This document shows positions 16,286 to 51,087 of a DNA stretch of 64,000 nt, piece by piece. A program made the translations under genes and the position numbers. Under the pieces are notes generated by a model, which saw only the letters and a list, made by a program, of their open reading frames with translations, ran no database searches and had not been told where the DNA came from. Origin of the DNA: Flavobacterium cauense R2A-7 (lineage in GTDB: Bacteria; Bacteroidota; Bacteroidia; Flavobacteriales; Flavobacteriaceae); NCBI RefSeq assembly GCF_000498475.1, contig NZ_AVBI01000019.1:124001-188000 (forward strand). The letters are read 5' to 3'. The number at the start of each line of letters is the position of its first letter. Positions within the stretch are counted from its first letter, which is position 1.

Positions 16286-16300
16286 GAATAGTATTTGTTA

Positions 16301-16327
16301 TGCCCTTCGACAAGCTCAGGGTGACGG
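16301..16327. repeat. CCCTTCGACAAGCTCAGGG dispersed repeat
   Basis: TGCCCTTCGACAAGCTCAGGGTGACGG, a short palindromic repeat with CCCT/AGGG arms, found in the 43-base gap between the thioesterase and nitrilase genes. The core TTCGA and the CTCAG resemble the other palindromic repeat family of this window. Confidence 0.6.
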
Positions 16328-16328
16328 A

Positions 16329-16751
16329 TTAGACAACGAATTTACTTATTTTATTTCTCATTTCCTCGGTAAAGGCTTCCGCTTTAATGCTGTCGCGGTT
16401 TTCTCCGAAGGCAATGTTTACTAAGGTTACTTCGCCTTCCACACAGGTTTTTCCTTGTTCGTCTTCGAAACGGAATCCGCATAGTAGGGAAGAATCGCCC
16501 AGTTTTTTTACCCAAAGTTTTTTGGTTAAGGTTTCGCCTAATCGTGCGGCTTTTTTGAATTGTACTTTCAAATCTACTGTTGGAATACCGTTGGTTTCGT
16601 GCATTTTGGAAAACGGACGGTCTAAGGCTTCTTCAAACCAATCTTCGACAATGCCGTTAAGCATTTCGAGAAATCTTGGGTAAAACACAATTCCGGCATA
16701 ATCAATATGTTGGAAACGGATTTTTTCTTCTTTAATAAAATAGTTGTTCAT
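16329..16751 (-). CDS. Hotdog-fold acyl-CoA thioesterase (4HBT-like)
   Basis: A 140-residue single hotdog domain. The catalytic Asp is D17 in HIDYAGIVFYPRFLEML, followed by the long helix and the strands DLKVQFKKAARLGETL and FRFEDEQGKTCVEGE typical of 4-hydroxybenzoyl-CoA thioesterase/YbgC-type enzymes. Expected role: release of the hydroxylated aromatic acid from its CoA thioester before ring cleavage. The start at MNNYFIKEEK was chosen because the 22 codons further upstream fall within a dispersed repeat. It lies between the FMN glutamate-synthase-like and nitrilase genes in the operon. Confidence 0.85.
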   Translation of the reverse strand: MNNYFIKEEKIRFQHIDYAGIVFYPRFLEMLNGIVEDWFEEALDRPFSKMHETNGIPTVDLKVQFKKAARLGETLTKKLWVKKLGDSSLLCGFRFEDEQGKTCVEGEVTLVNIAFGENRDSIKAEAFTEEMRNKISKFVV

Positions 16752-16763
16752 TGTTCTGTATTT

Positions 16764-16854
16764 TAGCCCCGATAGAGCCGGTATCCTTTTTTGGTTGCCT
16801 GAGGCTCTCGAAGGCAACCGAAAAAGATAAAGGCGAAAGCGGGAATTAGCTCCT
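16764..16854 (+). repeat. Composite dispersed repeat (copy B) with an internal palindrome
   Basis: Begins TAGCCCCGATAGAGCCGG, contains the perfect palindrome GGTTGCCT...AGGCAACC (16793-16819), and ends GCGAAAGCGGGAATTAGCTCC. The ends match copy A at 15201-15281 in the opposite orientation. The right end touches the stop codon of the FMN-binding glutamate-synthase-like gene. Confidence 0.7.
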
Positions 16855-18436
16855 AAAAATTTTCTGCCGATGCTTTTTTCCAGAAAAACTGATATTCCTT
16901 CGGAACAGTGTTTTCGTTGAGTAAGCAGCCCGGTTCGATTTCGGGAAACATTTCATAATAAGTTTCAATTTTTGATCCGCCAATGCGCGCACTGATAACG
17001 GTTCGGTCGACTTCATCCGGATGGCGCAAACCTGCCGAAGCCATTAGTTCCATGGCACTTTTCACGGTTTCGTGTTGGAAACGGGCTACGCGAACGCTTT
17101 TTTCTTCGGGAACCAAGCCTTTTGTTAATTTAGGATCTTGCGTGGCGACTCCGGTCGGACACGTATTGGCGTGACATTCCAAAGCCTGAATGCAACCCAG
17201 CGCGAACATCATGCCGCGTGCCGAATTGCAGACATCCGCTCCTATGGAAAGGCATTTTATGATGTCGAAACCAGTGATTACTTTTCCGCTGGCGATAATT
17301 TTGATTTCGTCTTTAATGCCAAATCCGTTCAAACTATCGTAAACAAACGCTAAAGCTTCGCGCAATGGCATTCCCACGTGATCGGAATATTCCTGTGGTG
17401 CTGCGCCTGTTCCGCCTTCGCCACCGTCTACCGTTATGAAATCGAAATAGGTTTTGGTAGCCACCATCGCTTTACAAATAGACATGAATTCGGATTTGTT
17501 TCCGATGCAGATTTTCATCCCGATGGGTTTTCCACCCGAACCTTTTCGTAATAATTTGATGAAATCCATCAGTTCCAAAGGATTGGAAAAAGCGGAATGT
17601 CTAGGAGGTGAAATGATATCGTTTCCTTTTTCGACCAAACGAATCGCTGCTATTTCATCGGTAACTTTTTGTTTTGGTAAAATACCGCCATGACCCGGTT
17701 TTGCGCCTTGGGAGAACTTGATTTCAATCATTTTTACGTTGTCCAGCGTGGCTCGTTTTGTAAACTCATCATAAGAGAATTTTCCATCTTTATCGCGACA
17801 GCTGAAATAACCGGTTCCGATATTCCAAACCACGTCGCCACCTGGTTCTAAATGATAGGGGGAAAGTCCGCCTTCACCGGTATTATGGTAAAAACCGCCT
17901 TGTTTTGCTCCCGAATTTAGGGCTAAAATGGCATTTTTACTTAGTGAACCGAAACTCATCGCACTGATGTTAAACAAACTAGCGTCATAAGGTTTCTCAC
18001 ACTGAGAAGAGCCGATTTTTATTTTGGGATTGGAATTGACTTCGGCAAACGGAATGGCTTTAATACTATGATTAATCCATTTATAGCCCGATTCATAAAC
18101 ATCTAATTGTGTTCCGAAAGGCATGGAATCGGTTTCCTTTTTACTTCTTTGGTATACCAAACTGCGTTGTAAGCGGTTAAAAGGTTTTCCGGTGGTGTCG
18201 CTTTCAATGAAGTATTGGCGCATTTCCGGTCCGATAGATTCCAGCAAATAGCGCATTCTACCTAAAAGCGGGAAATTTCTTTTGATGGTTTGTTTGGACT
18301 GATACATGTCGTACAATCCCATTAAAATCAAAGGAATGAAAATCAATAACAGCAAACTGAATTTCCAGTTTACATAAATAAGCATCCCTGTTAGAGACAA
18401 TACTGTAATGCTGATAATAATGAATGCTTTTCTCAT
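16853..18436 (-). CDS. FMN-binding glutamate-synthase-family protein, membrane-anchored
   Basis: A 527-residue protein. Two N-terminal hydrophobic helices (about residues 4-22 and 26-45) are followed by the FMN/TIM-barrel domain of the glutamate synthase large subunit (FNISAMSFGSLSKNAILALN; GEGGLSPYHLEPGGDVVWNIG; TVDGGEGGTGAAP). The iron-sulfur cysteines C-x5-C-x4-C (GCIQALECHANTCPTG) are present. It lacks the glutaminase and GXGXG domains, so it is not classical GltB. Archaeal-type and stand-alone forms transfer electrons to an unknown reaction. Its place inside an aromatic operon is unexplained. It lies 7 bases from the CoA ligase gene, so it is cotranscribed with it. Confidence 0.82.
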   Translation of the reverse strand: MRKAFIIISITVLSLTGMLIYVNWKFSLLLLIFIPLILMGLYDMYQSKQTIKRNFPLLGRMRYLLESIGPEMRQYFIESDTTGKPFNRLQRSLVYQRSKKETDSMPFGTQLDVYESGYKWINHSIKAIPFAEVNSNPKIKIGSSQCEKPYDASLFNISAMSFGSLSKNAILALNSGAKQGGFYHNTGEGGLSPYHLEPGGDVVWNIGTGYFSCRDKDGKFSYDEFTKRATLDNVKMIEIKFSQGAKPGHGGILPKQKVTDEIAAIRLVEKGNDIISPPRHSAFSNPLELMDFIKLLRKGSGGKPIGMKICIGNKSEFMSICKAMVATKTYFDFITVDGGEGGTGAAPQEYSDHVGMPLREALAFVYDSLNGFGIKDEIKIIASGKVITGFDIIKCLSIGADVCNSARGMMFALGCIQALECHANTCPTGVATQDPKLTKGLVPEEKSVRVARFQHETVKSAMELMASAGLRHPDEVDRTVISARIGGSKIETYYEMFPEIEPGCLLNENTVPKEYQFFWKKASAENF

Positions 18437-18443
18437 GGTTTCT

Positions 18444-20033
18444 TTATTTTAATTTGAAACGCTGAATTTTTCCGGTTTCCGTTTTTGGTAAATTCTCCAT
18501 AAAGTTAATAACTCTTGGGTATTTATACGGCGCAGCTACTTCTTTAAACCACAACTGAATAGCTTTTACTAATTCATCCGTTGCTTTATGTTTTTCTTTT
18601 AAAACGATATGAGCACAAACCAGCATTCCGCGTTCTTCATCGGGTAAACCCACTACGGCACATTCCAGAATTTCTTCGTGAGTTAAAAGTACGCTTTCTA
18701 CTTCAATTGCCGCAATATTATAGCCGGAAGAAATAATCATATCATCGCCACGTGCCACAAACCAAAAATATCCGTCTTCGTCCTGACGGAAAATATCGCC
18801 GGTTAAATTCCAACCGTTCTCGACATATTCGCGTTGTTTTTCTTCACGGTTTAGGTATTTGCAACCGGTGATTCCGCGAACGGCTAATCTTCCTGGTGTA
18901 TTTCTGGGTGCTTCATTTCCTTTGGAATCAATTATTTTGGCTTCATAACCCGTTACGGCTACACCGGTGGAACCCGGTTTCATATTTCCTTCGTTGGAAG
19001 AAATGAAGATGTGTAACATTTCCGTGGCTCCAATGCCGTCAATAATTTTTAAACCGGTTGCGTTGTACCAGTCTTCCCAAACTTTTAAAGGGAGTGTTTC
19101 TCCAGCCGATACACATTTACGCAGGCTGGAAATATCGTATTCTTTTACTTTTGTTGTGATGATGCGCCAAGCGGTAGGTGCTGTAAAACAAACAGTTACT
19201 TTATACTCCTGAATGGCCTGTAGAAGTAAATCGGGAGTAGGTTTTTCGATTAGAAATGTGGACGCTCCGAAATACATCGGAAACAAAACCAATCCGCCCA
19301 AGCCAAAGGTGAATCCGAGTGGCGGACTTCCGGTGAAAACATCGCTTGATGTCGGTTGTAATGAATACGGAGGAAAAGCTTCGCAGATGTTTAAAATATC
19401 TTTGTGGTAATGCGCCGTCATTTTAGGTAAACCCGTTGTTCCTGAGGTGAAACCAATTAAGGCGATACTATCGGATTTTGTGTGGTAATTGTTGAAGGTT
19501 TTTGGTTTGGACTGCATTAGGTCTTCTAATTCAGAATTTCGGAAATAGCAGCTGTTTCTCAAAAAAGGAGAGTCGACCAATTCCATTTCTTCGCAAAGTG
19601 AACTATCGCATAAAACATGGGATATTTCGGCACAGTCAATAATTGTGGTTAATTCTTTTGAACGCAACAAAGGCATTGTGGCTACAACAACTCCGCCAGC
19701 TTTCAGAATGGCATACCAGCAGGCGACCATCATTGGGTTATTTGCAGAGCGAATCAATACTCGATTTCCTGATTTCAGACCCAAATCATCTATTAAAACA
19801 TGCGCAATCTGGTTTGCTTTTTCATACAAATCATTGTATGTCCATTTTTCCTCAAACGTTTGGATGCAAGTTGCATTACCATGTCCGTTTTTGATATGAA
19901 AATCGAGTAACCGTTCCACACAATTCAGCATTTCCGGATGTTGGAATTGCGGTAGATTTTCAAAAATATAGTCCGGTTGTAATTCCGGAGCAGGTAAGCT
20001 ATTGTGAGCGAAATTATCTTCGTAATGTTTCAT
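18444..20033 (-). CDS. Aryl-CoA ligase (2-aminobenzoate/benzoate-CoA ligase type)
   Basis: A 529-residue AMP-forming ligase. The P-loop is FTSGTTGLPKM (about residues 195-205), and later motifs are DGIGATEM, LTGDIFRQDEDGYFWFVARGDD and YNIAAIEVE. The catalytic Lys is K522 in PKTETGKIQ. The length equals that of 2-aminobenzoate- and benzoate-CoA ligases (about 530). It activates an aromatic acid to its CoA thioester with ATP. The flavin monooxygenase/OYE fusion two genes upstream acts on salicylyl- or 2-aminobenzoyl-CoA in known systems, so salicylate or anthranilate is the likely substrate; the choice is open. Spacing to neighbours is 2-7 bases. Confidence 0.87.
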   Translation of the reverse strand: MKHYEDNFAHNSLPAPELQPDYIFENLPQFQHPEMLNCVERLLDFHIKNGHGNATCIQTFEEKWTYNDLYEKANQIAHVLIDDLGLKSGNRVLIRSANNPMMVACWYAILKAGGVVVATMPLLRSKELTTIIDCAEISHVLCDSSLCEEMELVDSPFLRNSCYFRNSELEDLMQSKPKTFNNYHTKSDSIALIGFTSGTTGLPKMTAHYHKDILNICEAFPPYSLQPTSSDVFTGSPPLGFTFGLGGLVLFPMYFGASTFLIEKPTPDLLLQAIQEYKVTVCFTAPTAWRIITTKVKEYDISSLRKCVSAGETLPLKVWEDWYNATGLKIIDGIGATEMLHIFISSNEGNMKPGSTGVAVTGYEAKIIDSKGNEAPRNTPGRLAVRGITGCKYLNREEKQREYVENGWNLTGDIFRQDEDGYFWFVARGDDMIISSGYNIAAIEVESVLLTHEEILECAVVGLPDEERGMLVCAHIVLKEKHKATDELVKAIQLWFKEVAAPYKYPRVINFMENLPKTETGKIQRFKLK

Positions 20034-39446: not shown

Positions 39447-41069
39447 ATGAAGAAGAGCATTTTAACCTTAGTTTTACTATTTTCGATTATTGGTTTTGCC
39501 CAAACTACGAACGTAACCTACACAGCTTCATCCGATAATTTTTCAAATCCTGAAAGAGGTTTGTATCACCACACTGAAACACACTCAACCGGATACACAA
39601 GTTTAAGTCAATCTACATTGACCAATTACAGAAACAACGAAAATATTTCATTGATATTGCGTGTTTTCTATTTGGAAAATTTCAGATCGACTGCAATTTC
39701 TCAGGATTATTTAAATAAAGTTCAAGCCGATTTTAATACCATCCGAAATGCGGGTTTAAAATGTATAGTACGTTTTGCATATTCTGATACCGATACTGCC
39801 GGACAACGCGATGCTTCCAAAGCTCAGATTTTAGCTCATATTGAACAACTTAGACCATTATTGCAGAATAACGTTGATATTATCGCCGTTATGCAGGCCG
39901 GTTTCATCGGTTCTTGGGGAGAATGGTACTATACCGATTATTTCGGAATGTCGCCAACTTCAACAGATTATGCTAACAGAAAAGCGGTTGTAGACGGAAT
40001 TTTAAGTGCTTTACCTGCCTCAAGAATGGTACAGATCAGAACACCTAAATTAAAACAAAACACCTATTCTACAACAACTGCAATTACGCAAACTCAGGCT
40101 TACAACGGTACGGCTTTATCAAGAATTGGTCACCATAACGATTGTTTTTTGGCAAGTTCAACGGATTTTGGAACCTATACAAATACATCGTCAGAATACC
40201 CATATTTAGAGCAGGAAACTAAATTTTTACCAATGGGTGGCGAAACCTGTGCTGTTAACGAACCGCGTTCAGGTTGTACTTCGGCTTTATCCGAAATGCA
40301 AAAATTCCACTGGTCTTATATGAATACTGATTATAATGCGTCTGTTATTAGTGGTTTTTCATCAAGCGGTTGTTTTAACGACATTAAAAATAAATTGGGA
40401 TATCGTTTTGAATTGGTTAACGGAAGTTTTCCTCAAATGACTAATATTGGCGGTACAATGGCGGTAACGTTGAAAATTAAAAACTCTGGTTTTGCAACGC
40501 CTTACAACCAAAGGACAGCTTATATCGTTTTCAAAAATACGGTTACCAATGATGTATATACTAAAGCTTTAGCTTCAGATCCGAGATTATGGACAAGTCA
40601 GGCAGAAACAACAATTTCAGAAAACATTGCTTTACCGTCAAATATCATTCAGGGAAGCTACCGTTTGTATTTGGTTATTCCTGATGCAGCAACCGGATTA
40701 AGTTCCCGCCCGGAATATTCAATCAGAATGGCGAATGCTAACACTTGGGATGCAGCAACCGGATACAATAATTTAAATGCTATTGTTACTGTTGGAAGTC
40801 AGAATAACCTTGGAACAGCAGACAATACATTGGTTAATGCATTAATTTATCCGGTTCCGGCAAACAATGAAATCTTTGTTGAAATGGAAAACCTTGATCA
40901 ATATGCAATTGTAATGTACAATTCGTTGGGTCAGAAAATAAATGTAAAATCGCAATTGAGCGCTAATAAAATGACAATCGATACGGAAAGTTTAAGTGAT
41001 GGAATTTATTACATCAAATTTACTAACGGTTCAATAAACGACACCAGACGTTTGGTTGTTAAACACTAA
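39447..41069 (+). CDS. T9SS-secreted DUF4874/DUF4832-like protein
   Basis: A 540-residue secreted protein. A signal peptide (MKKSILTLVLLFSIIGFAQ) is followed by a DUF4874-type region (NPERGLYHHTETHS; ILRVFYLENF; GLKCIVRFAYSD) and a DUF4832-type region (GHHNDCFLAS; LGYRFELVNGSFP; AYIVFKNTV). The C-terminal type A sorting signal (IYPVPANNEIFVEMENL ... SDGIYYIKFTNGS ... RRLVVKH, about 465-540) directs export by the type IX system. The DUF4874/4832 pair resembles a TIM-barrel glycoside hydrolase with an accessory beta domain; the substrate is unknown. It converges on the Pel-like operon, so a role on that polymer is possible. Confidence 0.8.
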   Translation: MKKSILTLVLLFSIIGFAQTTNVTYTASSDNFSNPERGLYHHTETHSTGYTSLSQSTLTNYRNNENISLILRVFYLENFRSTAISQDYLNKVQADFNTIRNAGLKCIVRFAYSDTDTAGQRDASKAQILAHIEQLRPLLQNNVDIIAVMQAGFIGSWGEWYYTDYFGMSPTSTDYANRKAVVDGILSALPASRMVQIRTPKLKQNTYSTTTAITQTQAYNGTALSRIGHHNDCFLASSTDFGTYTNTSSEYPYLEQETKFLPMGGETCAVNEPRSGCTSALSEMQKFHWSYMNTDYNASVISGFSSSGCFNDIKNKLGYRFELVNGSFPQMTNIGGTMAVTLKIKNSGFATPYNQRTAYIVFKNTVTNDVYTKALASDPRLWTSQAETTISENIALPSNIIQGSYRLYLVIPDAATGLSSRPEYSIRMANANTWDAATGYNNLNAIVTVGSQNNLGTADNTLVNALIYPVPANNEIFVEMENLDQYAIVMYNSLGQKINVKSQLSANKMTIDTESLSDGIYYIKFTNGSINDTRRLVVKH

Positions 41070-41098
41070 AAAAGAAATGGTTTGATTTTTGATTTTGA

Positions 41099-41137
41099 AG
41101 TAGGAGCTGTCTTTTTATACAGTTCCTACTTTTTTTG
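41099..41137. terminator. Bidirectional terminator between T9SS gene and Pel-like operon
   Basis: A 13-bp stem, AAGTAGGAGCTGT / ACAGTTCCTACTT, with an 8-base loop and a T-run. The right arm overlaps the stop codon of the minus-strand 1290-residue protein. Confidence 0.85.
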
Positions 41138-44100
41138 TTTTCGTTTCAGATTATGTTTTATGCCCACCTGAAACGCATTAGAATAAAATTTATTCTGAAG
41201 GTAAAATTCAAATGACGTCGTAAGAGCGGTATAATCAAAAATCTGATAATTGCAATTTCCGATCAGTCGTGTAAATTCCGAAGCATAATCATCATTAAAC
41301 CACGCTCCTTCCACTCTCATGTTAAAATCATCTTCCGCTTTTCCGATGGCAAAACCGAGTCCGCCACCAATATAGAAACGTTCATCAATCATCCAATACG
41401 GATAACCGGATGATAACGGAACGGTAGATTTCCCTAAGGAACCTTCTGATTTGGAAGATTCTATAAAAGGCAGAAAGCGGTATTTTTTCTCTGCCCAACG
41501 GTCAAAAATTATTTTTCCTGTGGCGCTTCCTTCGTAGGATTCATAAGCATAATAATCTTTGTTGAGCACTTCACTCCTGTTGTAATAATTGCCTTCGAGG
41601 GACAAACTGGTGTTGAAATATTTAAAAAAGGTATAGTCCTGGTACAAATTAAGTTGAAAGCGATAAATACTTTTACTGTGACTCGGACCATTTTCTACCG
41701 GAGCAATTCTAAATTCGGCAGATGAAAAACTTTTGTTTTTGGAATAATTTGCTCCGGCACCAAACTGTATGAATGATTTTTTAAAATGACTATATTCGTA
41801 TCTGAAATTAGACCAATATTGCAATTTTTCATAAGCTTTCGGATTATTAAACTGATATTGTAATCCGAAAACATTATGGGTTCTGTTATCGATATAATCA
41901 GGAAGATCATTTTCAAGCCGGTACATCGAACTGTAGGTAATTGCCACGCCGTGCAGGTTTTTCTTTTTATCATACATATTATACGACAAAACGTTTTTAT
42001 AGGACGACAGGTCTTTTCGGTTACTTTCCATTTCGGTTACATAATTTATGAAATTCCCGTATTCGAGTCGGTCGGTTTTTAATACTTTTTCGAGCACATC
42101 CGGATAAAATAAGGCGGAATAATGATTCGCCAGATCTTCCTGAATATCGGCTTCTTCATAGATAACATCGGTATTCAGCATTTTTCGTAGCGGTTCCTTG
42201 TCGGAAGCTTCGTCCGGTAATTCATTGGCGAGAATCCAGGATTCCTTAAATTTTCCCATGTCGTGATAGGCCGTACTCATTTGAGCTTTAACTCTGTAAT
42301 CGTCAGGGTTTTTACTGATGTAATCATTGTATTCCCGAATTAATTTCGGATTGTCTTTCAGTTCAATAAGCCATTGCATTTTGGAATAAAAATCAATTTC
42401 GGTACTGAATTCCGACCAATTATAGGCTTTCTGAAACTCATTTTGATCGGCATAAAGCCAGCAGATTGCGGTTGCCAAATCTTTATATTCTTCGGAAGGT
42501 TTTAGTTTATCCAGTTCAATGATAGCGTTTTGCGGTTCATAATTAATCAGATAATCAATGTACTTCAGGAAACTTTCTTGCGTTGTATCTACTTTAAGCA
42601 GGTTGATTAACGCTTTCTTGATTTTTTCCTGATTTTCAGCCGTATAAAAATAGGCTACGTAGCTGTTAAGCAAGTCTTTGTCGTTTGGTGTTACCAGCAT
42701 TTGTGCGCTCATCCATTTTTCCTGAATCAGATCATTAGGATAATAGACAAGTTTGCTCAATCGTTTGGAATACATCACATTTTCGGCCAAAGGATATTTT
42801 ATACAGTGTTCTTCGAGCATTTTCCACACGTCTTCAGCTTTGTCTTCCCAAGAAAGATATTCAGTGTATTTGTCCCAGACTTCCGGATTAATTTTAGGTT
42901 CCGAAAGCATTCTTTTTCTCAAACCTTCAATTTCCAAAGCCAGTTTTTCATCAGAATCATCGTGCCAGATTTCTTCTTTGGCCAATCGTTTTACTTCTTC
43001 TTTGTATAATTTGAAATCCCGATTAACATTGGCTACAACCAAATTTAAGTCAACGGAAGCTAAATCAGATTTAAAATCGGGCATTACCAATTTTGGTTTA
43101 CTGGTTCGAACGGAGTATAAATAACCTTCCAGAAAAGGCGATTTTTTAAAGCCTGCTCCCTGTCTTTTCAGTTGTTCTTCAATCCGCGCCGCTTTTTCGT
43201 TACTACCGTACAGGAACCAATCCTGTTGGGAATAATTGGATTCTTCCGGCTTTAATTTTTCCACGGTATACATTCCAAACGCCGATTTATGATTGAAATA
43301 AGATGCTCTCCAATCGTTCGTCATTAAACCGCTTTCACGGGCGTCCATATAACGGATATTAGGAAAATCGGTTCGGAACGTTTTTAACAATTTGTCAAAT
43401 TCGGCATACATCGAGCGGCTACTGTTTGGGGTTTTGTACCATCCTAGATTATCATAATTGCGTAAATCGTATTCCCATTTACTCACAGTTGTACTTGGAA
43501 TTTGGTAAATATCATCCGGATGGAGAAAATGCGACCAAATTCCGGTATACATATACATAGAATACATTGCGAATTTTAAATCCGGATCTACATAAAATCC
43601 GCTCGAAATTCGTGGAAAATCAAATAAATCAGGTTCATAAGGATCAAAATCAAACTCCCGGTTACCGCCATCTTTTTTTTCACCAACTACAATACTACAC
43701 ATGAATGTTAAAGAAGGCATTCCCTTTTTTAGTTGTTTCAGCCCTACTCTGTCAATGTAATTGGATGGCGGCACATAGGTTACGGGCAAATCACCAAAAT
43801 CACTCGCTTCCCATTTTTTCTCTGCAGCTTTAAGCGAAGTGACCATAAAATCAGGATTTTTCCAATCCGAAACGAGTAATGAAACATGGTTATAGCCATG
43901 AAAAGCCAGTTCGTGCCCTTTTTTTGCAACATCATTAACAAGCCAATTACTAAGACCTAATTCTTTATCGCCAATTTTTACTTTTTTAGCATCCCATTCC
44001 CGAAATAAAAAGGGCGGTTTAATATTTACGTTGTAATCAAATGTGGTCATGGCAGTGTAATTGATATCGTGCTTTTTTCCCAATTTCACCAAATCCGGCC

Positions 44101-44998
44101 ACCAAACATTATGTACAAAATCCGTTATGGTAAGATTCATTTCAGAAGCAACCGGTTCTTTTTTGATATCGTAAAGCGGAGCGGGAAAATCATCTAAGAA
44201 AATAACACCGGTATTTATTATCGGGTACGGAATTCCTTCCAGCCCGTCAAGAATTCCGGACAACAGCAATCCCCTATCCTCTTTGATGAAGAAGTAGGTT
44301 GAATTGAAATAAATAACCTTTCCTTTTCCGATATTGTTTTTAACGATTAAAGGATAATTCGGATTGTTTTCCGCTGTGGCTAAAACTTTAATTTTATTTG
44401 AAAAAACACTTCCTTTTAAACCGTAAAATTTCAGTCCTTTTTTATAAACATGATCTTTAAATCCCGGTAAAACAGGATCTTTAAATAAAAAACCCGCCGC
44501 AACAGCATCCGTTTCATAATCATTTTCCGGTTTCATTCCGACTAAAAACGAAAACCGTTTGTCTTCACTGCCAAAAGGCATGTATAAGGTTCCGCCTTTT
44601 GCAACAAATTCGGTAATAACATCGATACTTTTATTGCTGAGTTTTTTGGTGTTCAACAAACTTAAAACCCGAACATTATCCCCTATTTTTGGATTTTTGT
44701 TCCAATCTTCAAGTGTGATGCTCTGAAAAGGAATTTTAGTATAATCACAAACTTTTCTCATGTTGCTGTTAAGTGTGAGACTTTCAATATCACCTTTATC
44801 GGATATGAATTGCACTAACGGAGGAATGTTTAACGGTAAACCGGAGTATCTGCGCAATGATAATTCTCCATTACGTTTGTTAAAAGCGTTTGCACCGGTA
44901 ATTTCATCGATTTTCATGCAGCCTGAAGCGATTGTTAGCAATAAAACTGCAAACAAGACATAGAATTTTGATGAAGTATTTTGTGTTACCTTATTCAT
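41126..44998 (-). CDS. Lipoprotein fusing PelA-like deacetylase (DUF2194), TPR scaffold and outer-membrane barrel
   Basis: A 1290-residue lipoprotein (lipobox LTIASGC, Cys27). Residues about 50-260 form an alpha/beta domain with a glutamine-amidotransferase-like look. About 260-560 is a NodB-like polysaccharide deacetylase: metal Asp pair in IFLDDFPAP (D269-D270), H367-x3-H371 (FHGYNH), PPSNYID (410-416) and HPDD (493-496). About 690-990 are helical TPR-like repeats. About 1000-1290 are amphipathic strands of a beta-barrel. Known Pel systems encode the deacetylase (PelA) and the TPR-barrel exporter (PelB) separately. Likely role: deacetylation and outer-membrane export of an amino-sugar polymer. 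Last gene of the operon, 2 bases from the membrane protein gene. Confidence 0.75.
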   Translation of the reverse strand: MNKVTQNTSSKFYVLFAVLLLTIASGCMKIDEITGANAFNKRNGELSLRRYSGLPLNIPPLVQFISDKGDIESLTLNSNMRKVCDYTKIPFQSITLEDWNKNPKIGDNVRVLSLLNTKKLSNKSIDVITEFVAKGGTLYMPFGSEDKRFSFLVGMKPENDYETDAVAAGFLFKDPVLPGFKDHVYKKGLKFYGLKGSVFSNKIKVLATAENNPNYPLIVKNNIGKGKVIYFNSTYFFIKEDRGLLLSGILDGLEGIPYPIINTGVIFLDDFPAPLYDIKKEPVASEMNLTITDFVHNVWWPDLVKLGKKHDINYTAMTTFDYNVNIKPPFLFREWDAKKVKIGDKELGLSNWLVNDVAKKGHELAFHGYNHVSLLVSDWKNPDFMVTSLKAAEKKWEASDFGDLPVTYVPPSNYIDRVGLKQLKKGMPSLTFMCSIVVGEKKDGGNREFDFDPYEPDLFDFPRISSGFYVDPDLKFAMYSMYMYTGIWSHFLHPDDIYQIPSTTVSKWEYDLRNYDNLGWYKTPNSSRSMYAEFDKLLKTFRTDFPNIRYMDARESGLMTNDWRASYFNHKSAFGMYTVEKLKPEESNYSQQDWFLYGSNEKAARIEEQLKRQGAGFKKSPFLEGYLYSVRTSKPKLVMPDFKSDLASVDLNLVVANVNRDFKLYKEEVKRLAKEEIWHDDSDEKLALEIEGLRKRMLSEPKINPEVWDKYTEYLSWEDKAEDVWKMLEEHCIKYPLAENVMYSKRLSKLVYYPNDLIQEKWMSAQMLVTPNDKDLLNSYVAYFYTAENQEKIKKALINLLKVDTTQESFLKYIDYLINYEPQNAIIELDKLKPSEEYKDLATAICWLYADQNEFQKAYNWSEFSTEIDFYSKMQWLIELKDNPKLIREYNDYISKNPDDYRVKAQMSTAYHDMGKFKESWILANELPDEASDKEPLRKMLNTDVIYEEADIQEDLANHYSALFYPDVLEKVLKTDRLEYGNFINYVTEMESNRKDLSSYKNVLSYNMYDKKKNLHGVAITYSSMYRLENDLPDYIDNRTHNVFGLQYQFNNPKAYEKLQYWSNFRYEYSHFKKSFIQFGAGANYSKNKSFSSAEFRIAPVENGPSHSKSIYRFQLNLYQDYTFFKYFNTSLSLEGNYYNRSEVLNKDYYAYESYEGSATGKIIFDRWAEKKYRFLPFIESSKSEGSLGKSTVPLSSGYPYWMIDERFYIGGGLGFAIGKAEDDFNMRVEGAWFNDDYASEFTRLIGNCNYQIFDYTALTTSFEFYLQNKFYSNAFQVGIKHNLKRKQKK

Positions 44999-45000
44999 AA

Positions 45001-46971
45001 TCAGAATATTAAATCGTCTGTTTTGCTTTGCCCCGGAACGTTTTCAATCTCAAAAACTTTAATGAGGCTGCTTTCATAAAATACACTCACTTTACGCCCT
45101 CTTTTTTTTAGCACCTCAAGTTTTGAGAGTATCAAAGGTGTTATTTCGCAGTTTACAATGATGCGATTGCTCTTGTCGTCTGCTTTTTTATAAATAAATA
45201 CCAAAACACTATTGGGCAGTACGTACTCCGGATTTTTTTTGAGGAATTTTTTATTCTTTTTGTTTTTAAAATAAACAGAATCTCTTTTTAAATAGTTCGC
45301 GGTAAAATCGGTATAATGAATAAAAAAATGCTTGTTAATGCTGATGGGTTGTGTGGTGTAATCGTTTACAACCGCATACGAATACGGATAAAAACTCAAC
45401 GTGATTTTTTCATAAACATTGATTAAGTCTCTCGGAACATTATCGGTTTTATGCAATTTTCTGAATTCCTTTTCCTGATAATGAAACGCCGAATACAAAA
45501 CGCCCGCTATTAAAAACACTGCAAAAGCCGGCTTGATAACTTCTGTTTTGGTGTAAAAGAAATAAGTAATCCGAATGATGAGTGCGATTGAAATTCCCAA
45601 TACCACAGGAATGAAAATCCCAAGCGATAATTTCACCAAATCGTTGTCAATCCAATTGTGATTGATTTCGGATAAAAACACCAGGAAATTAAAGTAAAGC
45701 AGAAAACACAAGGCGGCGTTCCATTTTTCATTTTTAAAGAAAAGGAGTAGCAAGCAGCAAATTATGGAGCCGTAACTTAAATACTGATAATAAATCATCA
45801 ATTGTTCGTAGGAAACAATCAGATGCGAGAAATAGGTATAAGCACTAACCGACATTAATCCGGAGTGGATGAATAATTTAAAATCGTCGCCAAAATGGTT
45901 ACAGGCAATTCCGTAAACGGCAAAAAGTATTGCCAACGCTATGATATAGGCTGAAATGGCAACTAAATTCTGAATTTTGTGTTTAAAAGACGATGTTAAC
46001 AACCCAATAATCAGAAAAGGAAAAATAAGTACAATCAAAGTGAAAATATCAATTAACCCAATAGCAGTAAAAGCAAGGATATAATTGATGAAACTGTTGA
46101 TGTTGTTGCTGTGCATGAATCCGGGTTTCAGGTAGATAACCATTGCCGGTAGTGCAAAACTGATTGCTAAAAACAAAGATTGGTGCTGTAAAATATAAGT
46201 GATGTTTACCGGCATTATGGTATAGCTGACACTAAAAAAAAGTGCTGCAACCAATGGCGCAATGATTTTGGAATGTGAAATCGTATTGATTACCCAAAAT
46301 AGTAAAACGCTTATTAACACCGCTTCTAAAATTCCTGCTGATTGTAAAGCGGCTTCCGGACTAATACTTACAAACTTTCCGTAAAAATTAATCATGGCTA
46401 GTTCGCCAATTGGTACCACGCCGTTGGTAAACCACTGTTGAGAGTCGAAATCAATAATACTTTCAAGATCGGAAATCCAGGAACCGGATAAGGAAAACAT
46501 GTCGAATTGATAGAAGATGTACCGACTGTAAAAGGCTACAACCCCAAGAGTTGAAAGTAAAAAAAGATACCAAAGTCGGTTGTTTCGCTCTTCCGGGTTG
46601 GATCTTGTTAAAACAAAAAATCCGATTGGTTTTTTGAGCTCAATATTTTGAATCAGCTCAAAAATGTTTCTTTTTACTTTTTGCGAGGTAATGTTAATCG
46701 ATTGCGGTATGTTTTTGATACCGAAATAATCCAGATAAATAACCAACAAAAGAAGAATAACAGTATTCAGTAAGTTGTAAATACCAAGTTGTACAAGTCC
46801 GAAAACAAGTAGTATTATAATGCTACCGTATTTGAACCACTGTTTGGCAATAAAATCGAAATAAGTAACTGATTTGGTATATGATATGAATTTCCGGTTC
46901 ATATAAAACAAAAATAAAATCATGAGACACAGCCTCACAAAACCTGTTATTATGGAACTTGAAATTATCAT
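45001..46971 (-). CDS. Large polytopic membrane protein of the Pel-like operon, unknown
   Basis: A 656-residue protein with about 13-14 membrane helices (residues 1-95, then about 130-500) and a C-terminal soluble region of about 150 residues (from KLHKTDNVPRDLINVYEKI). A large loop after the helix near 140 (SLSGSWISDLESIIDFDSQQWFTNG, about 180-204) contains acidic residues like those of GT-C glycosyltransferases, but I cannot identify a family. It lies between the hydrolase (9 bases) and the lipoprotein fusion (2 bases). It could replace PelE/PelD as an inner-membrane scaffold or modify the polymer; both are inferences. Confidence 0.6.
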   Translation of the reverse strand: MIISSSIITGFVRLCLMILFLFYMNRKFISYTKSVTYFDFIAKQWFKYGSIIILLVFGLVQLGIYNLLNTVILLLLVIYLDYFGIKNIPQSINITSQKVKRNIFELIQNIELKKPIGFFVLTRSNPEERNNRLWYLFLLSTLGVVAFYSRYIFYQFDMFSLSGSWISDLESIIDFDSQQWFTNGVVPIGELAMINFYGKFVSISPEAALQSAGILEAVLISVLLFWVINTISHSKIIAPLVAALFFSVSYTIMPVNITYILQHQSLFLAISFALPAMVIYLKPGFMHSNNINSFINYILAFTAIGLIDIFTLIVLIFPFLIIGLLTSSFKHKIQNLVAISAYIIALAILFAVYGIACNHFGDDFKLFIHSGLMSVSAYTYFSHLIVSYEQLMIYYQYLSYGSIICCLLLLFFKNEKWNAALCFLLYFNFLVFLSEINHNWIDNDLVKLSLGIFIPVVLGISIALIIRITYFFYTKTEVIKPAFAVFLIAGVLYSAFHYQEKEFRKLHKTDNVPRDLINVYEKITLSFYPYSYAVVNDYTTQPISINKHFFIHYTDFTANYLKRDSVYFKNKKNKKFLKKNPEYVLPNSVLVFIYKKADDKSNRIIVNCEITPLILSKLEVLKKRGRKVSVFYESSLIKVFEIENVPGQSKTDDLIF

Positions 46972-46980
46972 ATTTATGTT

Positions 46981-47790
46981 TTAATCGTTAAAAAGTGGAA
47001 ATTTTTGAAGATCAATCGATCCAATAAAATACAAAAAATTGGTTTTCGAAATTCGCTTCTTGATGTCGTTATATAGTGCTAATGAATCAGCATATTCAAC
47101 CAGTATTATGGGGAACTTATATTTTTTGCGCAATTGGTTGAGCTTTTTAAGGTATTCGTTGTATTCTTTTTCGTCACGGAGTTTATAAGAATTGTCGGGG
47201 AACGTATAATTGCTTGCCACAGACTCTACCACTACTCCATCTACAAAATTGTGTGTGGCGTCAATTAGTTCAATTCCGGCATTTTGAAGAATGAAATGCT
47301 GCGGATATTTTGCATTGAGTTTTTCAATGAAACCCACAACTTCCGATTGTTGATCTTTCTGAAAGCCAAATGAGGTAAAGTTGTCGATATTGTCTAAAAA
47401 TAAGCCGTCATATCCATCGGCTAACATTCTGTCAATTTCAGTGAAAAGTACTTGGGAAGTCGAATCGGATTTTAAATCCAAATAGTAGCTGTCCCAGTTT
47501 TCGTTTTTACCTAAAGTAATGTCTTTTAATTTGTTAAAATGTTTTGATTGACTGTTTACTTCACCTAAGCTAATATAGGCCAATACTTTTCCGTTTAGCT
47601 TTTTTACTTTTTTAATGTCGGATGGATTGTAATGTTTCGATTCGAGAATTACATAATCATAACCTTTAATTTCAATCGGATTCAGTTTGCCGTAGCAAAA
47701 AAAAACATTTGGCTTTTGCAAACTGCCTGCGAAAGCCTGAAATCCTAACAATGAAGGAAGTACACACAAGAAAAGTTTAATATGCTGCAT
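46981..47790 (-). CDS. PelA-type glycoside hydrolase (GH114/GH166-like)
   Basis: A 269-residue exported protein: signal peptide (MQHIKLFLCVLPSLLGFQAFAG) and a TIM-barrel with the hallmarks of endo-alpha-1,4-polygalactosaminidases and the PelA hydrolase domain. These are YDYVILESKHYNP, VLAYISLGEVN, DGLFLDNIDNF and DGVVVESVASNY, with acidic residues at strand ends as catalytic candidates. In Pseudomonas PelA the hydrolase is the N-terminal domain of a larger protein that also carries the deacetylase; here it is separate. It overlaps pelG by 14 bases. Predicted to trim or clear the polymer in the periplasm. Confidence 0.82.
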   Translation of the reverse strand: MQHIKLFLCVLPSLLGFQAFAGSLQKPNVFFCYGKLNPIEIKGYDYVILESKHYNPSDIKKVKKLNGKVLAYISLGEVNSQSKHFNKLKDITLGKNENWDSYYLDLKSDSTSQVLFTEIDRMLADGYDGLFLDNIDNFTSFGFQKDQQSEVVGFIEKLNAKYPQHFILQNAGIELIDATHNFVDGVVVESVASNYTFPDNSYKLRDEKEYNEYLKKLNQLRKKYKFPIILVEYADSLALYNDIKKRISKTNFLYFIGSIDLQKFPLFND

Positions 47791-49393
47791 AATAGTAATA
47801 GTCTAGATTTTTAAAAAAAACGATATTTGCTTTTAATGTCAGCAACATGAAGGTCAGCGCGCCAATAAACAATCCGCCTACACTGTATTCGTAAGAAACA
47901 AAACGACTGAGTAGAAACCCTGTGAACACATTAACCAAACATGCAATTATTATGGCTCGCAATGGCTGTACCGGTTGCCCTAAAGTGAACAGATAAAGCG
48001 TGTTGAGCATTCCCCATGCCAGAAAAAAATAAGCCACTCCGCCAATGAGACAAACCCGCAAGCTGACTTCCTGAAATACTTCGTTAAATTGGGCCTGATA
48101 ACCCCATGAAGAAGTGATGATGAAATAAATCAAAATAAAAATCAGTAGTGCCGACACGAGAAGAATTGAGATGTGTTGCCAATACATTTTATAAAGACTT
48201 CCGTTATATTTTTCCGGACAACTGTAAGAAGTGTTTTTTTGACCGATATCGATGAACTTTGAAAATGCTGCCAAACTGTATTCCAAAACACCGGAAAGCA
48301 ATAAAAACACGAGAATAGCCATGTCCATTCCCAATTCGTAATTTTTCTCAAAATAAATGGCATAGGGAATTGTTCCGCTAACATCTGCAGACCAGGCTAA
48401 AATGCGGTCGGTAAAAATGAATATGTAGATGAAAAATCCGTAAAAAAAATAATGATAATTCTGATACAACATTACCGGTGTTTTGATTTCCATATTGCAG
48501 TCTACCTGACGTTTGTCGATTTTATTCTTTAAAAAAAAGTACAAATAGGCTTTGGATGTAATGATGGCAATGGTAATCCCGATCCAATGGGTCAGGTAAA
48601 CGGAAATTGAGGTAAATTTTTCAAGTAAAATTGCAATGGTTGTGGCCAGAAAAATGGCAATGGAAATGAACCAGCGTTGTTTGACGGTATGCAGCGGTGC
48701 AATAACCAATAGCAACATTCCCACCATAAAGGCATAGGTGAATAAAACAAACAAGAGTTTCATGGGAAACACATGGAAAAAAAAGTTGGTAAAAAAAATC
48801 ACGGTCAAAACCATAAAAATAGATTTGGCTCCCATCATGACTAAATAATCAATGGTTTTTCGCGTCATGGTATAATCTTCATAATTCCAGTAAAACGAAG
48901 CCTGACGGCCAATAACCTGAACAAAACCACCGGTTGATATCAATCCCACAATTACGCCTAAAACCACTGCGGTGGATTGCATATGGTTGAACCCAACGTA
49001 AGTCCACAACGAATATCCGAAGAAAATGATGGCGATAATTTGAACAAAAATCGGCAGCAGATGTAAAATTCCCATTGGATAATATTTTGCGAATATTTTG
49101 GCCTTAATCATTAAATAATCAGACGCCTGAAAGATTTTGGTTGCTGTTGAATTATCCAATTCTCTTTCTTTTTTATTTTGTATCGTAATGTAATCCGGAG
49201 CGGAAACAATTTTCTTAAAAACAAAATCGGCCAAAGCTCTGATGGAAACCATTCCAAAATCATTCATCGTGTCTTTATCGCGAATTCCCAATGATTCAAT
49301 AGTAGCTGCCACCACGCGATTGCTCACGGGTTTGCCAATTTTCTCCTTGATTGAGTTGATAAGGTTTTCGATATTTTGACTATGATTGTCCAT
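47777..49393 (-). CDS. pelG: PelG-like polysaccharide transporter with N-terminal extension
   Basis: A 538-residue membrane protein of the PelG/MOP type with about 12 helices from residue 105 onward (MGILHLLPIFVQIIAIIFFG; STGGFVQVIGRQASFYWNYEDY; YFFYGFFIYIFIFTDRILAWSAD). Pseudomonas PelG has about 456 residues and begins near the first helices; here about 90 cytosolic residues precede them (VVAATIESLGIRDKDTMNDFGMVSIRALADFVFKK). It is predicted to move the growing polymer across the inner membrane with PelF. It overlaps the hydrolase gene by 14 bases and follows pelF by 15. Confidence 0.82.
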   Translation of the reverse strand: MDNHSQNIENLINSIKEKIGKPVSNRVVAATIESLGIRDKDTMNDFGMVSIRALADFVFKKIVSAPDYITIQNKKERELDNSTATKIFQASDYLMIKAKIFAKYYPMGILHLLPIFVQIIAIIFFGYSLWTYVGFNHMQSTAVVLGVIVGLISTGGFVQVIGRQASFYWNYEDYTMTRKTIDYLVMMGAKSIFMVLTVIFFTNFFFHVFPMKLLFVLFTYAFMVGMLLLVIAPLHTVKQRWFISIAIFLATTIAILLEKFTSISVYLTHWIGITIAIITSKAYLYFFLKNKIDKRQVDCNMEIKTPVMLYQNYHYFFYGFFIYIFIFTDRILAWSADVSGTIPYAIYFEKNYELGMDMAILVFLLLSGVLEYSLAAFSKFIDIGQKNTSYSCPEKYNGSLYKMYWQHISILLVSALLIFILIYFIITSSWGYQAQFNEVFQEVSLRVCLIGGVAYFFLAWGMLNTLYLFTLGQPVQPLRAIIIACLVNVFTGFLLSRFVSYEYSVGGLFIGALTFMLLTLKANIVFFKNLDYYYYAAY

Positions 49394-49408
49394 AAGTTAA
49401 TACATTAG

Positions 49409-50944
49409 TTATGACGCTTCCATAGCTTTTCTTTCTGCAAAATGCAGCTTTAATGATTCCGGCATACTATTTCCCATAATCTTTTCATAGGCTTCTTCAT
49501 ATTCTTTTATAAATTTTCCTATGGTGAAATTTTCAATCACTTTTCGTCGGGCGTTTATTCCCATTTGTTTACGTAATTGTTCGTTTTGTAAAAGATGAAT
49601 CACGCATTTGCCAATTTCTTCGTAATCTTTAGGTTTGCAGAGGAATCCGCAGTTTTCATCTAAAGCTTCATAAACGCCACCCACATCTGTTGCTACCACC
49701 GGAATCCCGCAACTCATCGATTCTAAAACAGTATATGGGAATCCTTCCGAAATAGACGTCAGTATGGAGATATCGCCTTCGCAAAACAATTGGTGTGGTT
49801 TGCTGTGATATCCGGCTAATTTAAAGTTGTCCTGTAGTTGCAGTTCAGCAATTAAATCTTCGCATTCTTTGGTATATTCCGGAACTGCATTATTATCGCC
49901 GTAAACCAAATATTGTACGTTTGGAATTTGCCGTTTTACAACCTCGCAGGATTTTATCATCGTAATGATGTCTTTCAGATCAAAAATACGGGCAGCGGCA
50001 ACTACTGTCGGAATTCCTTCAAGTGCTTTGGGTTTGGGTGCGGGAACGAAAAGATTGTGATCAATCCCGTTGTAAATCACCTCAATAATTTCCGGATTTG
50101 CACCATAGAATTTTTCCCAGATCATGTTGAATTTATTAACCGAAAGAATCAAATCGGCTTTATAATAAACCAATTCGGTTATGCTTTCTGAGAATTTAAT
50201 CAGTAATTTTTTAAGGAAATAGGAATACTCCGATGAATTGATGGCCAGTAACCGTTCCCGTATGAAAACGCCGTGCTCCGTGGCAATTATTGGTGTATTG
50301 TATTTGTATTTCAGTACCAGTGCCGGGATGACCGGAAAACCGGAAATGGTTAAGTGCGAAATATCGGCCTTGGGAACATCAATGGAAAGTGGTATGAGGA
50401 ACCGATAAATCCAACGCATTCCGAAAGTAAGGTCGTTTAGGGTCGCCTCTTCTTTTGTGTTTCGGCTTAATTCTACCACCAAATTGCAAAATGCTCTCCA
50501 TACAGCCATACTTTGCATGGTTTTTTTATAATCGTGTGATTGAAAAAAACACCACATTCTGAAAATGACATCGTCAAAATCTTCAGCTTTTCGGGTGTCT
50601 GAATATATATTGGTAATCATTCGTTTAAAAACAGGAACGAATTCTTCTTTGATGATTGTTTCATTCAGCTCTTCTTTTTCATCAACAATCGTGTAAAAAT
50701 GTTTTCCGTAATTTATCATTTCCTGCGGTTCTAAAGGCGACCACAACGGAACCTGAACAATCTCTTTAACATTTTCACTCAGTTCATATTTAGATTTGCT
50801 TTCGTACTGCGCATTGATGGAATATAAAATGAAATTGGCGTTTTTTATGTCGTTACAAAGCATGTGAGACCACGTTGAAACACCGCCACCGTTATAAGGA
50901 TAAGTCCCTTCAAGGATTAAAAGTACATCGTATTTCTTGTTCAT
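49409..50944 (-). CDS. pelF: PelF-like GT4 glycosyltransferase
   Basis: A 511-residue cytoplasmic GT-B glycosyltransferase. The N-terminus VLLILEGTYPYNGGGVSTW is nearly diagnostic of PelF, and the C-terminal donor-site motifs are VAAARIFDLKDI, KLAGYHSKPH, TSISEGFPYTVLESMSCGIPVVATDVGG. PelF of Pseudomonas (about 507 residues) uses UDP-sugars to build the Pel polymer of N-acetylgalactosamine-type residues. The first gene of the five-gene operon, with a TAAATTTG box about 130 bases upstream. An alternative start lies 4 codons upstream at 50956. Confidence 0.87.
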   Translation of the reverse strand: MNKKYDVLLILEGTYPYNGGGVSTWSHMLCNDIKNANFILYSINAQYESKSKYELSENVKEIVQVPLWSPLEPQEMINYGKHFYTIVDEKEELNETIIKEEFVPVFKRMITNIYSDTRKAEDFDDVIFRMWCFFQSHDYKKTMQSMAVWRAFCNLVVELSRNTKEEATLNDLTFGMRWIYRFLIPLSIDVPKADISHLTISGFPVIPALVLKYKYNTPIIATEHGVFIRERLLAINSSEYSYFLKKLLIKFSESITELVYYKADLILSVNKFNMIWEKFYGANPEIIEVIYNGIDHNLFVPAPKPKALEGIPTVVAAARIFDLKDIITMIKSCEVVKRQIPNVQYLVYGDNNAVPEYTKECEDLIAELQLQDNFKLAGYHSKPHQLFCEGDISILTSISEGFPYTVLESMSCGIPVVATDVGGVYEALDENCGFLCKPKDYEEIGKCVIHLLQNEQLRKQMGINARRKVIENFTIGKFIKEYEEAYEKIMGNSMPESLKLHFAERKAMEAS

Positions 50945-51079
50945 CTCAAAAACCATTTGTTCTTTGTTGTAGCGGTATTCGCTAAAACATCAAAAATTAA
51001 ATAAATCGGTTCTTGGGCTGTTTTTGAAATAAAGACAGTTTGTGGTTAACTGTTTAAGGTGTTGAAACCTTGATTACTA

Positions 51080-51087
51080 CAAATTTA
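51080..51087 (-). promoter_or_regulatory. -7 box of the Pel-like operon
   Basis: TAAATTTG on the minus strand, matching TAnnTTTG. It implies a leader of about 125-130 bases before pelF, long compared with the other transcripts of this window, so there is room for control of translation. No TTG at the usual -33 distance. The rest of 50945-51262 shows no gene. Confidence 0.45.

Follow-up and report, generated by a model that had tools for sequence, protein, structure and literature searches.

A Pel-type exopolysaccharide locus of Flavobacterium cauense in which deacetylase and outer-membrane pore appear to form one lipoprotein

In well-studied bacteria, the deacetylase that modifies an exopolysaccharide and the pore through which the polymer leaves the cell are separate proteins. 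A locus of Flavobacterium cauense R2A-7 raises the question of whether both can reside in a single polypeptide. The window analyzed here comprises 64,000 nucleotides of contig NZ_AVBI01000019.1 (124,001–188,000 of the forward strand); all coordinates refer to this window. On its minus strand, five packed genes are arranged head to tail (41126–50956). In the order of transcription they encode PelF, a PelG-like transporter, a PelA-type hydrolase, a membrane protein of 656 residues and a lipoprotein of 1290 residues. An earlier note on this DNA had located the same five reading frames, with the pelF start at 50944, an alternative to 50956, and had proposed that the PelA deacetylase and the PelB exporter are fused in the lipoprotein. 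Judging from families, predicted folds and gene order, the locus quite probably encodes a Pel-type exopolysaccharide machine that combines polymer modification and outer-membrane export in one polypeptide. In the Flavobacterium group, polymer deacetylase and export pore appear to be a single protein. We further infer a Pel polymer and its deacetylation at the pore.

The intergenic distances from pelF to the lipoprotein gene are 15, −14, 9 and 2 bases, and the medians at the same junctions are 24, −14, 5 and 1 in 61 complete loci of named species. The negative value corresponds to a 14-base overlap of pelG and the hydrolase gene. With gaps of this size, the five genes fit one operon.

Domains of the 1290-residue lipoprotein

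The lipoprotein (41126–44998, minus strand) starts with a signal peptide and a lipobox cysteine, the lipobox being read by eye (residues 1–27, 44918–44998). Cys27 is kept in 73 of 75 aligned sequences (the window and 74 named loci) and is replaced by Gly in L081 and L091. An α/β domain resembling CBM114 follows (residues ~60–255, 44234–44821; alignments with PDB entry 9ZAU and with Agd3), and next to it a CE26-like deacetylase domain with NodB fold (residues ~260–566, 43301–44221; structure comparison by VIA, 9ZAU and conservation). Residues 199–603 match DUF2194 with 218.8 bits. A 14-sequence profile matches the Bacillus cereus deacetylase PelADA (9ZAU) with an E-value of 6.8e-69; for residues 28–602 of the window protein the value is 2e-34.

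PelADA is described as the founder of CE26 and CBM114, with the catalytic residues D262, D263, an HxxxH motif, R458, H488 and D491; these provide an Asp base, an Asp-His-His metal site, an Arg and a His acid paired with Asp (PMC13254593). In the alignment with 9ZAU, the complete set is present in the window protein as D269, D270, H367, H371, R463, H493 and D496. D269, D270, R463 and D496 are conserved in all 75 sequences and the three histidines in 74, the exception being the orphan copy L122. The NodB-like center that the earlier note had read as D269-D270 and H367-x3-H371 is borne out by this conservation. The fold agrees with that of the Helicobacter deacetylase HP0310 (VIA Z 19.1), and the head aligns with Agd3 from the first residue of the model onwards (473 residues, Z 15.6, root-mean-square deviation (rmsd) 6.0).

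The PelA structure 9cgy was not returned when the lipoprotein profile was searched against the PDB at E ≤ 1, whereas 9ZAU was. Furthermore, the putative base and metal aspartates are adjacent in the window protein (D269, D270), and their PelA counterparts are D528 and D530 (PMC12022489). By sequence, the deacetylase is therefore of the B. cereus PelADA type (CE26/CBM114) and not detectably of the CE21 type of PelA; a distant fold relation to the latter may exist. Since the domain is of the CE26 type, the proposed fusion of a PelA deacetylase to PelB is apt with respect to function, but not to descent.

An AlphaFold2 (AF2) model of residues 91–1290 (60 sequences; predicted local distance difference test (pLDDT) 89.0; predicted template modeling score (pTM) 0.54) contains, in this order, the NodB-like deacetylase, about nine helix pairs and a β-barrel of 16 strands. 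The helices resemble tetratricopeptide repeats (TPRs; residues 648–980, 42059–43057) and align with OGT (VIA Z 13.0 over model residues 591–882, rmsd 12.6). The barrel spans residues 983–1283 (893–1193 in the model; 41150–42052). Its top three Foldseek matches are BcsC, again BcsC, and 4y25, which is titled as a polysaccharide secretin and which we take to be PgaA. VIA ranks BcsC (Z 22.7), 4y25 (22.6) and PelB (22.0; chain 9h80_M, 321 residues, rmsd 4.3) clearly ahead of the next barrel (15.3). The TPR-like helices and the ~290 residues of strands expected from the sequence were thus recovered, and families, predicted folds and gene order agree that the hydrolase is free and that deacetylase, scaffold and barrel form one chain.

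PelB has 16 strands, a helix termed Plug-I between strands 7 and 8 and a conserved Tyr-1103 (PMC12141448). A short helix likewise separates strands 7 and 8 of the modeled barrel. A P-Y-W motif is found just ahead of strand 12 (P1200 in 75/75, Y1201 and W1202 in 69/75 each), and by counting strands it would be placed near Tyr-1103 of PelB.

Surface lipoproteins are frequent in Bacteroidota, and the lipobox cysteine would also suit a non-exporting protein of the cell surface, a lipoprotein or adhesin with an extracellular deacetylase. This is very improbable. Because the strand count is even, the two barrel ends should lie on the same side, and head and helices would accordingly be periplasmic. 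Helices followed by a barrel are also the order found in BcsC and PelB, and all 61 complete loci of named species link the gene to those for synthesis.

Several known systems are close to this locus. The pelABCDEFG system of Pseudomonas aeruginosa shares PelF, a PelG-like transporter, a PelA-type hydrolase, a deacetylase, a helical scaffold and a 16-strand barrel. In the window, however, the hydrolase is free, the CE26-like deacetylase shares a chain with scaffold and barrel, and the scaffold has about nine helix pairs compared with the 19 TPRs reported for PelB (PMC12022489). The window operon also adds a protein with a predicted glycosyltransferase C (GT-C) fold, and none of its genes is recognizable as PelC, PelD or PelE, although no family search was aimed at PelC or PelE; the packed operon has no room for PelC or PelE genes. 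In a predicted complex of the P. aeruginosa proteins, the PelA deacetylase domain docks on TPRs 9–15 of PelB, and contact with TPRs 9–14 raises deacetylase activity and lowers hydrolase activity (PMC12022489). By analogy, the window scaffold would correspond roughly to the stretch from dock to pore and would lack the TPRs extending in the direction of the inner membrane.

BcsC and PgaA have helical repeats and a 16-strand barrel as well; they are the secretins of other polymers, cellulose and poly-N-acetylglucosamine, and carry no deacetylase in the chain. Zymomonas BcsZ-BcsC does join a periplasmic modifying enzyme to an exopolysaccharide pore, but the enzyme is a hydrolase and the polymer cellulose, in place of a deacetylase and Pel (PMC7112194). 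The fusion of an enzyme to a pore is thus already known as such. Among the open-access papers listed (no preprints), no title or abstract describes a deacetylase joined to a Pel-type pore or a Bacteroidota Pel system, and neither the constancy of the fusion in the phylum sample nor a GT-C-fold partner came up there.

The synthesis genes and the polymer

PelF (49409–50956, minus strand) is a GT4 glycosyltransferase with a DUF3492 N-terminal domain (NF038011, 169.2 bits, cut-off 100; PF11997, 197 bits). The free hydrolase (46981–47790, minus strand) has an N-terminal signal and belongs to the PelA-type endo-α-1,4-galactosaminidases (PF03537, 80.9 bits). Its best matches in the PDB are PelA structures (9cgy, 8e-18; 5tcb, 4.3e-17). 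D133, D136 and E189 are invariant in 23 sequences, and E189 aligns with a Glu of PelA that is presumably catalytic. The earlier assignments of these two genes are supported by these scores.

Several results weigh against a Pel machine as described above. The PelG-like protein (47777–49393, minus strand) scores 16.3 bits against PF16933, under the cut-off of 29, with a match that starts at residue 112. Of the 23 members of the PelG alignment, to which the window protein belongs, 12 have a PF16933 match at E ≤ 0.01 (best 1.6e-9) and 11 do not; the probability for a match to Cetobacterium PelG is 0.2%. The window protein is PelG-like and divergent in sequence, and its assignment as PelG is provisional. 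For the lipoprotein, the pTM of 0.54 leaves the mutual placement of head, scaffold and barrel unsettled. The barrel has a net charge of +2 in the window (median 0, range −12 to +14). In three orphan lipoproteins, Arg and Asp replace H367 and H371 while the barrel is kept, so the pore can exist without an active enzyme. Finally, a PelD_GGDEF search gave no match, but its control was silent in all 14 genomes and the search is uninformative.

The charges agree only partly with a cationic chain: the scaffold carries a negative net charge (−22 in the window; median −12, range −40 to +14), but the barrel is neutral. The PelB barrel is reported to be anionic (PMC12141448).

The orphan lipoproteins have no neighboring pel genes (L043:12214–16140, L044:3933–7877, L122:9908–13834). 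Two of them, L043 and L044, are outside the 75-sequence alignment, and no PelF match was found in their genomes (G345 and G134). These copies may represent either a pore that has outlived its enzyme or a new role.

About 80 residues form a conserved N-terminal extension of PelG (49154–49393 in the window), located ahead of the Pfam match. P22, A30, E33 and S34 of this extension are invariant in 23 sequences. The PelG profile gave no match to solved structures at 0.1.

A divergent PelG would also suit a system that produces and exports another amino-sugar polymer, with the same deacetylase-pore acting on it; the name Pel would then be misleading. The absence of recognizable PelC, PelD and PelE genes from the operon, with a GT-C-fold protein there instead, points in the same direction, as does a second PelF-like glycosyltransferase in distant loci (Pfam: L163), which suggests polymer variation. 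Nevertheless, a different polymer is unlikely. The hydrolase is nearest to PelA in the PDB and the deacetylase nearest to PelADA, and both of these enzymes are reported to be active on α-1,4-linked N-acetylgalactosamine (PMC12022489, PMC13254593). Agd3, a deacetylase of galactosaminogalactan, is also among the fold matches.

The likeness to B. cereus pelDEADAFG extends to the deacetylase family, the N-terminal domain and the catalytic residues. PelADA is, however, anchored by a transmembrane helix with a proposed contact to PelG (PMC13254593), whereas the window protein has a lipobox cysteine and a fused pore, and no PelD was recognized in the window operon. A cluster of Cetobacterium somerae (Fusobacteriota, L046:6528–15762) also combines hydrolase, DUF2194 protein, PelF and PelG. 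Its DUF2194 protein is too short for a barrel (609 residues), and the cluster contains a GAF-domain gene, as in PelD. The diderm Fusobacteriota at L046 thus have a pel cluster of Gram-positive-like composition, in which no barrel gene is annotated.

The 656-residue membrane protein and the proposed mechanism

The fourth gene (45001–46971, minus strand) encodes a membrane protein that the earlier note had left unnamed. It matches no Pfam family at cut-off, and its profile matched no PDB chain by sequence at E ≤ 10. In the AF2 model (51 sequences, pLDDT 85.6, pTM 0.86), residues 120–646 adopt a predicted GT-C fold. Four extra N-terminal helices precede it and are outside most fold matches. Rows 1–15 of the Foldseek search contain what we take to be GT-C proteins, with E-values of 1.3e-5 to 0.029 and query TM-scores of 0.23–0.41 (0.37 for the best E-value). 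With such TM-scores the match is remote. VIA gave STT3 (Z 20.4, rmsd 9.1, 436 residues), ArnT (17.4, 7.7) and DPY19 (17.2, 10.3). No PelD or PelE chain is among the VIA rows, which proves nothing. No report of a GT-C-fold component in Pel systems was found in the same literature (open access, no preprints), and this protein may be the stranger part of the system.

Y560 and D564 are invariant in 93/93 sequences and D442 is kept in 92/93. D157 is invariant in all 73 sequences of the window and the named loci. Beyond these it is present in 1/20, namely L176 from the same class, and lost in 19/19 from outside the class. GT-C enzymes usually carry D/E-x-x-aromatic in the first extracytoplasmic loop. 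In the membrane protein, Ser or Thr at 162 and Trp at 165 (S/T-x-x-W) are kept in 91/93 sequences. Read as the site of the usual motif, this suggests that the protein possibly has no catalytic activity and lacks the usual GT-C catalytic acid.

Two roles can be considered on the basis of the model. The protein might be active in the periplasm as a glycosyltransferase, using an undecaprenyl-phosphate sugar to decorate or cap the polymer. GT-C folds occupy the top rows with the extracytoplasmic domain included, and the conservation of D157 (73/73), D442 and D564 would suit an enzyme. This role is nevertheless somewhat doubtful: S/T-x-x-W stands where Asp or Glu before an aromatic residue is expected, D157 is lost outside the class, and no lipid-sugar synthase is recognizable among the five operon genes. 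The chances are about even that the protein instead stands in for PelD/PelE, serving PelF and PelG as a hub without catalytic activity. The missing acidic signature and the lack of a recognized PelD-type gene in the operon are consistent with a hub. So are the GPI-transamidase chains 9ub7_B and 7w72_U among the fold matches, which are presumably PIG-U, GT-C-like and non-catalytic. However, a fold match cannot separate catalysis from scaffold, and the conserved D442 and D564 could be catalytic.

In the proposed mechanism, PelF would polymerize an amino sugar in the cytosol and PelG would carry the chain over the inner membrane; its membrane partner, in the position of PelD/PelE, would be the GT-C-fold protein. 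The chain would enter the CBM114/CE26 head of the lipoprotein and be partially de-N-acetylated. The resulting cationic polymer would follow the short, negatively charged helical scaffold and exit via the 16-strand barrel. The free PelA-type hydrolase would cut periplasmic chains, either for the release of cell-free polymer or for clearance after failed export. The fusion would be the covalent form of the P. aeruginosa contact in which the PelA deacetylase is docked on PelB, and control would be exerted by a route other than a PelD-type c-di-GMP (cyclic diguanosine monophosphate) sensor. The genome yielded no GGDEF domain in a search whose control matched in 8/14 genomes; PelD-type c-di-GMP control is hence unlikely here.

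More speculatively, Bacteroidota could possess a third kind of Pel machine, distinct from both the proteobacterial and the Gram-positive type. It would lack PelD-type c-di-GMP control and contain a GT-C-fold protein as a new inner-membrane component for handling or decorating the chain. Its tethered deacetylase would act as the gate to the pore, through which only deacetylated polymer could pass. The link from the Gram-negative inner-membrane Pel machinery to deacetylation and export has been called unclear (PMC13254593). In a natural fusion, deacetylase, scaffold and pore have a fixed order and stoichiometry, and the coupling of deacetylation and export becomes testable via one linker. The Bacteroidota would gain a Pel-type route together with a GT-C-fold component.

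Occurrence of the gene order and adjoining genes

In a scan of named species genomes, the best 80 of 135 relatives were examined. The closest among them is F. saliperosum (85% over the whole 1290-residue protein), and the genera among the matches listed include Flavobacterium, Maribacter, Roseivirga, Aquimarina and Salegentibacter. The complete five genes are present in order in 61 of the 80 loci. Contig ends cut 13 of the others (L052, L054, L058, L065, L066, L069, L075, L077, L079, L092, L093, L094 and L098). The rest comprise a wide gap between hydrolase and membrane-protein gene (L081), loss of four genes save a fragment (L091), broken frames (L097), a split last gene (L111), a split pelF (L114) and the orphan L122. 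Across 62 named loci, pairwise distances of the five proteins correlate at 0.69–0.97, whereas 200 permutations reached 0.19 at most; this fits joint inheritance.

The lipoprotein occurs in 4/60 genomes (its own, 36 of the genus and 23 of the order) and in 14/299 of the family, its own included and one being a chance match. Of 16 flavobacterial loci 10 are complete; contigs end within L031, L032 and L041, the copies in L043 and L044 are orphans and L045 is a chance match. Strong DUF2194 matches (193–256 bits) were found in 27/395 genomes of the phylum. PelF is present in 27/395, and when compared by eye the two sets are the same. All 27 strong matches lie in frames of 1268–1349 residues; thus, a sequencing or gene-calling artefact as the source of the fusion is ruled out. 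Not counted were G542 (30.8 bits, above cut-off, profile positions 59–153, frame of 696 residues) and 18 genomes whose sub-cut-off matches cover only part of the profile. The fusion arrangement is not peculiar to this genome.

Loci were read for 24 of the 27 PelF-positive genomes of the phylum (20 further ones and G000, G091, G219 and G235; G407, G625 and G639 were left out). The five-gene order is kept in 19 of the 20 further loci, 18 of which have an insertion. In L159–L175 and L177, a second PelF-like glycosyltransferase (~395 residues) and a gene for ~540 residues lie between pelG and the hydrolase gene. In L175 the pelG is short and the hydrolase frames are split; L176 carries just the five genes, and L158 is rearranged. 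Pfam assigned an HD domain to extra genes of L163 and L173 and DUF3492 to the second glycosyltransferase of L163. The Pfam searches, which covered L163, L169 and L173, also showed upstream response regulators. L168 carries a second pel copy in pieces (membrane protein, hydrolase and pelG; 15774–18901) upstream of the complete one.

Outside Bacteroidota, the plasmid records contained relatives at three fusobacterial places, covering 30–34% of the query and only its deacetylase part. The same records gave no match to the barrel alone or to the membrane protein alone.

A convergent gene adjoins the operon (39447–41069, plus strand). It encodes DUF4874, DUF4832 and a type IX secretion tail, and only for this tail was a solved relative found. 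A DUF4832 neighbor adjoins 29 of the 70 loci with enough flank. Within the genus, 3 of 4 lipoprotein-positive genomes have a strong DUF4832 match compared with 1 of 33 negative ones; the remaining positive genome has a completeness of 60%, and a sub-cut-off match is present in one of the negative genomes. DUF4832 genes have been described beside streptococcal and clostridial pel loci (PMC7112168). The convergent gene is probably an accessory gene of the locus, and its product is possibly a secreted matrix enzyme or binder.

A 14-bp hairpin with a T run (41097–41132) lies between the two convergent genes and is a probable terminator common to both. The pattern scan found 12 such sites where 8.1 were expected, so that the scan is no proof of a terminator. 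Upstream of the operon, TAAATTTG (51080–51087, minus strand; seen in the sequence) is a candidate −7 promoter element, 123 bases ahead of the pelF ATG at 50956, the in-frame ATG at 50944 being the other start candidate. It fits TAnnTTTG, the −7 promoter element of Bacteroidota.

In F. davisii (L097), the frames of pelF and the membrane protein are broken and the pelG frame has 786 residues, approximately pelG plus hydrolase; the breaks may be a sequencing error. All five frames are open in F. columnare (L104). Flavobacterium-type pel genes were also found in metagenome bins named Sphingobacterium thalpophilum (L054) and Bifidobacterium breve (L093), whose contigs are probably mis-binned or mislabeled.

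Marine relatives have a further gene adjoining pelF (L084:2761–3816, L033:13855–14847, L112:2740–3708). In L084 it encodes a TM1410-type hydrolase that is circularly permuted, residues 202–348 of the query matching 11–151 of the chain and residues 49–175 matching 156–279. The genes in L033 and L112 have the same partial GH114 match at the C-terminus.

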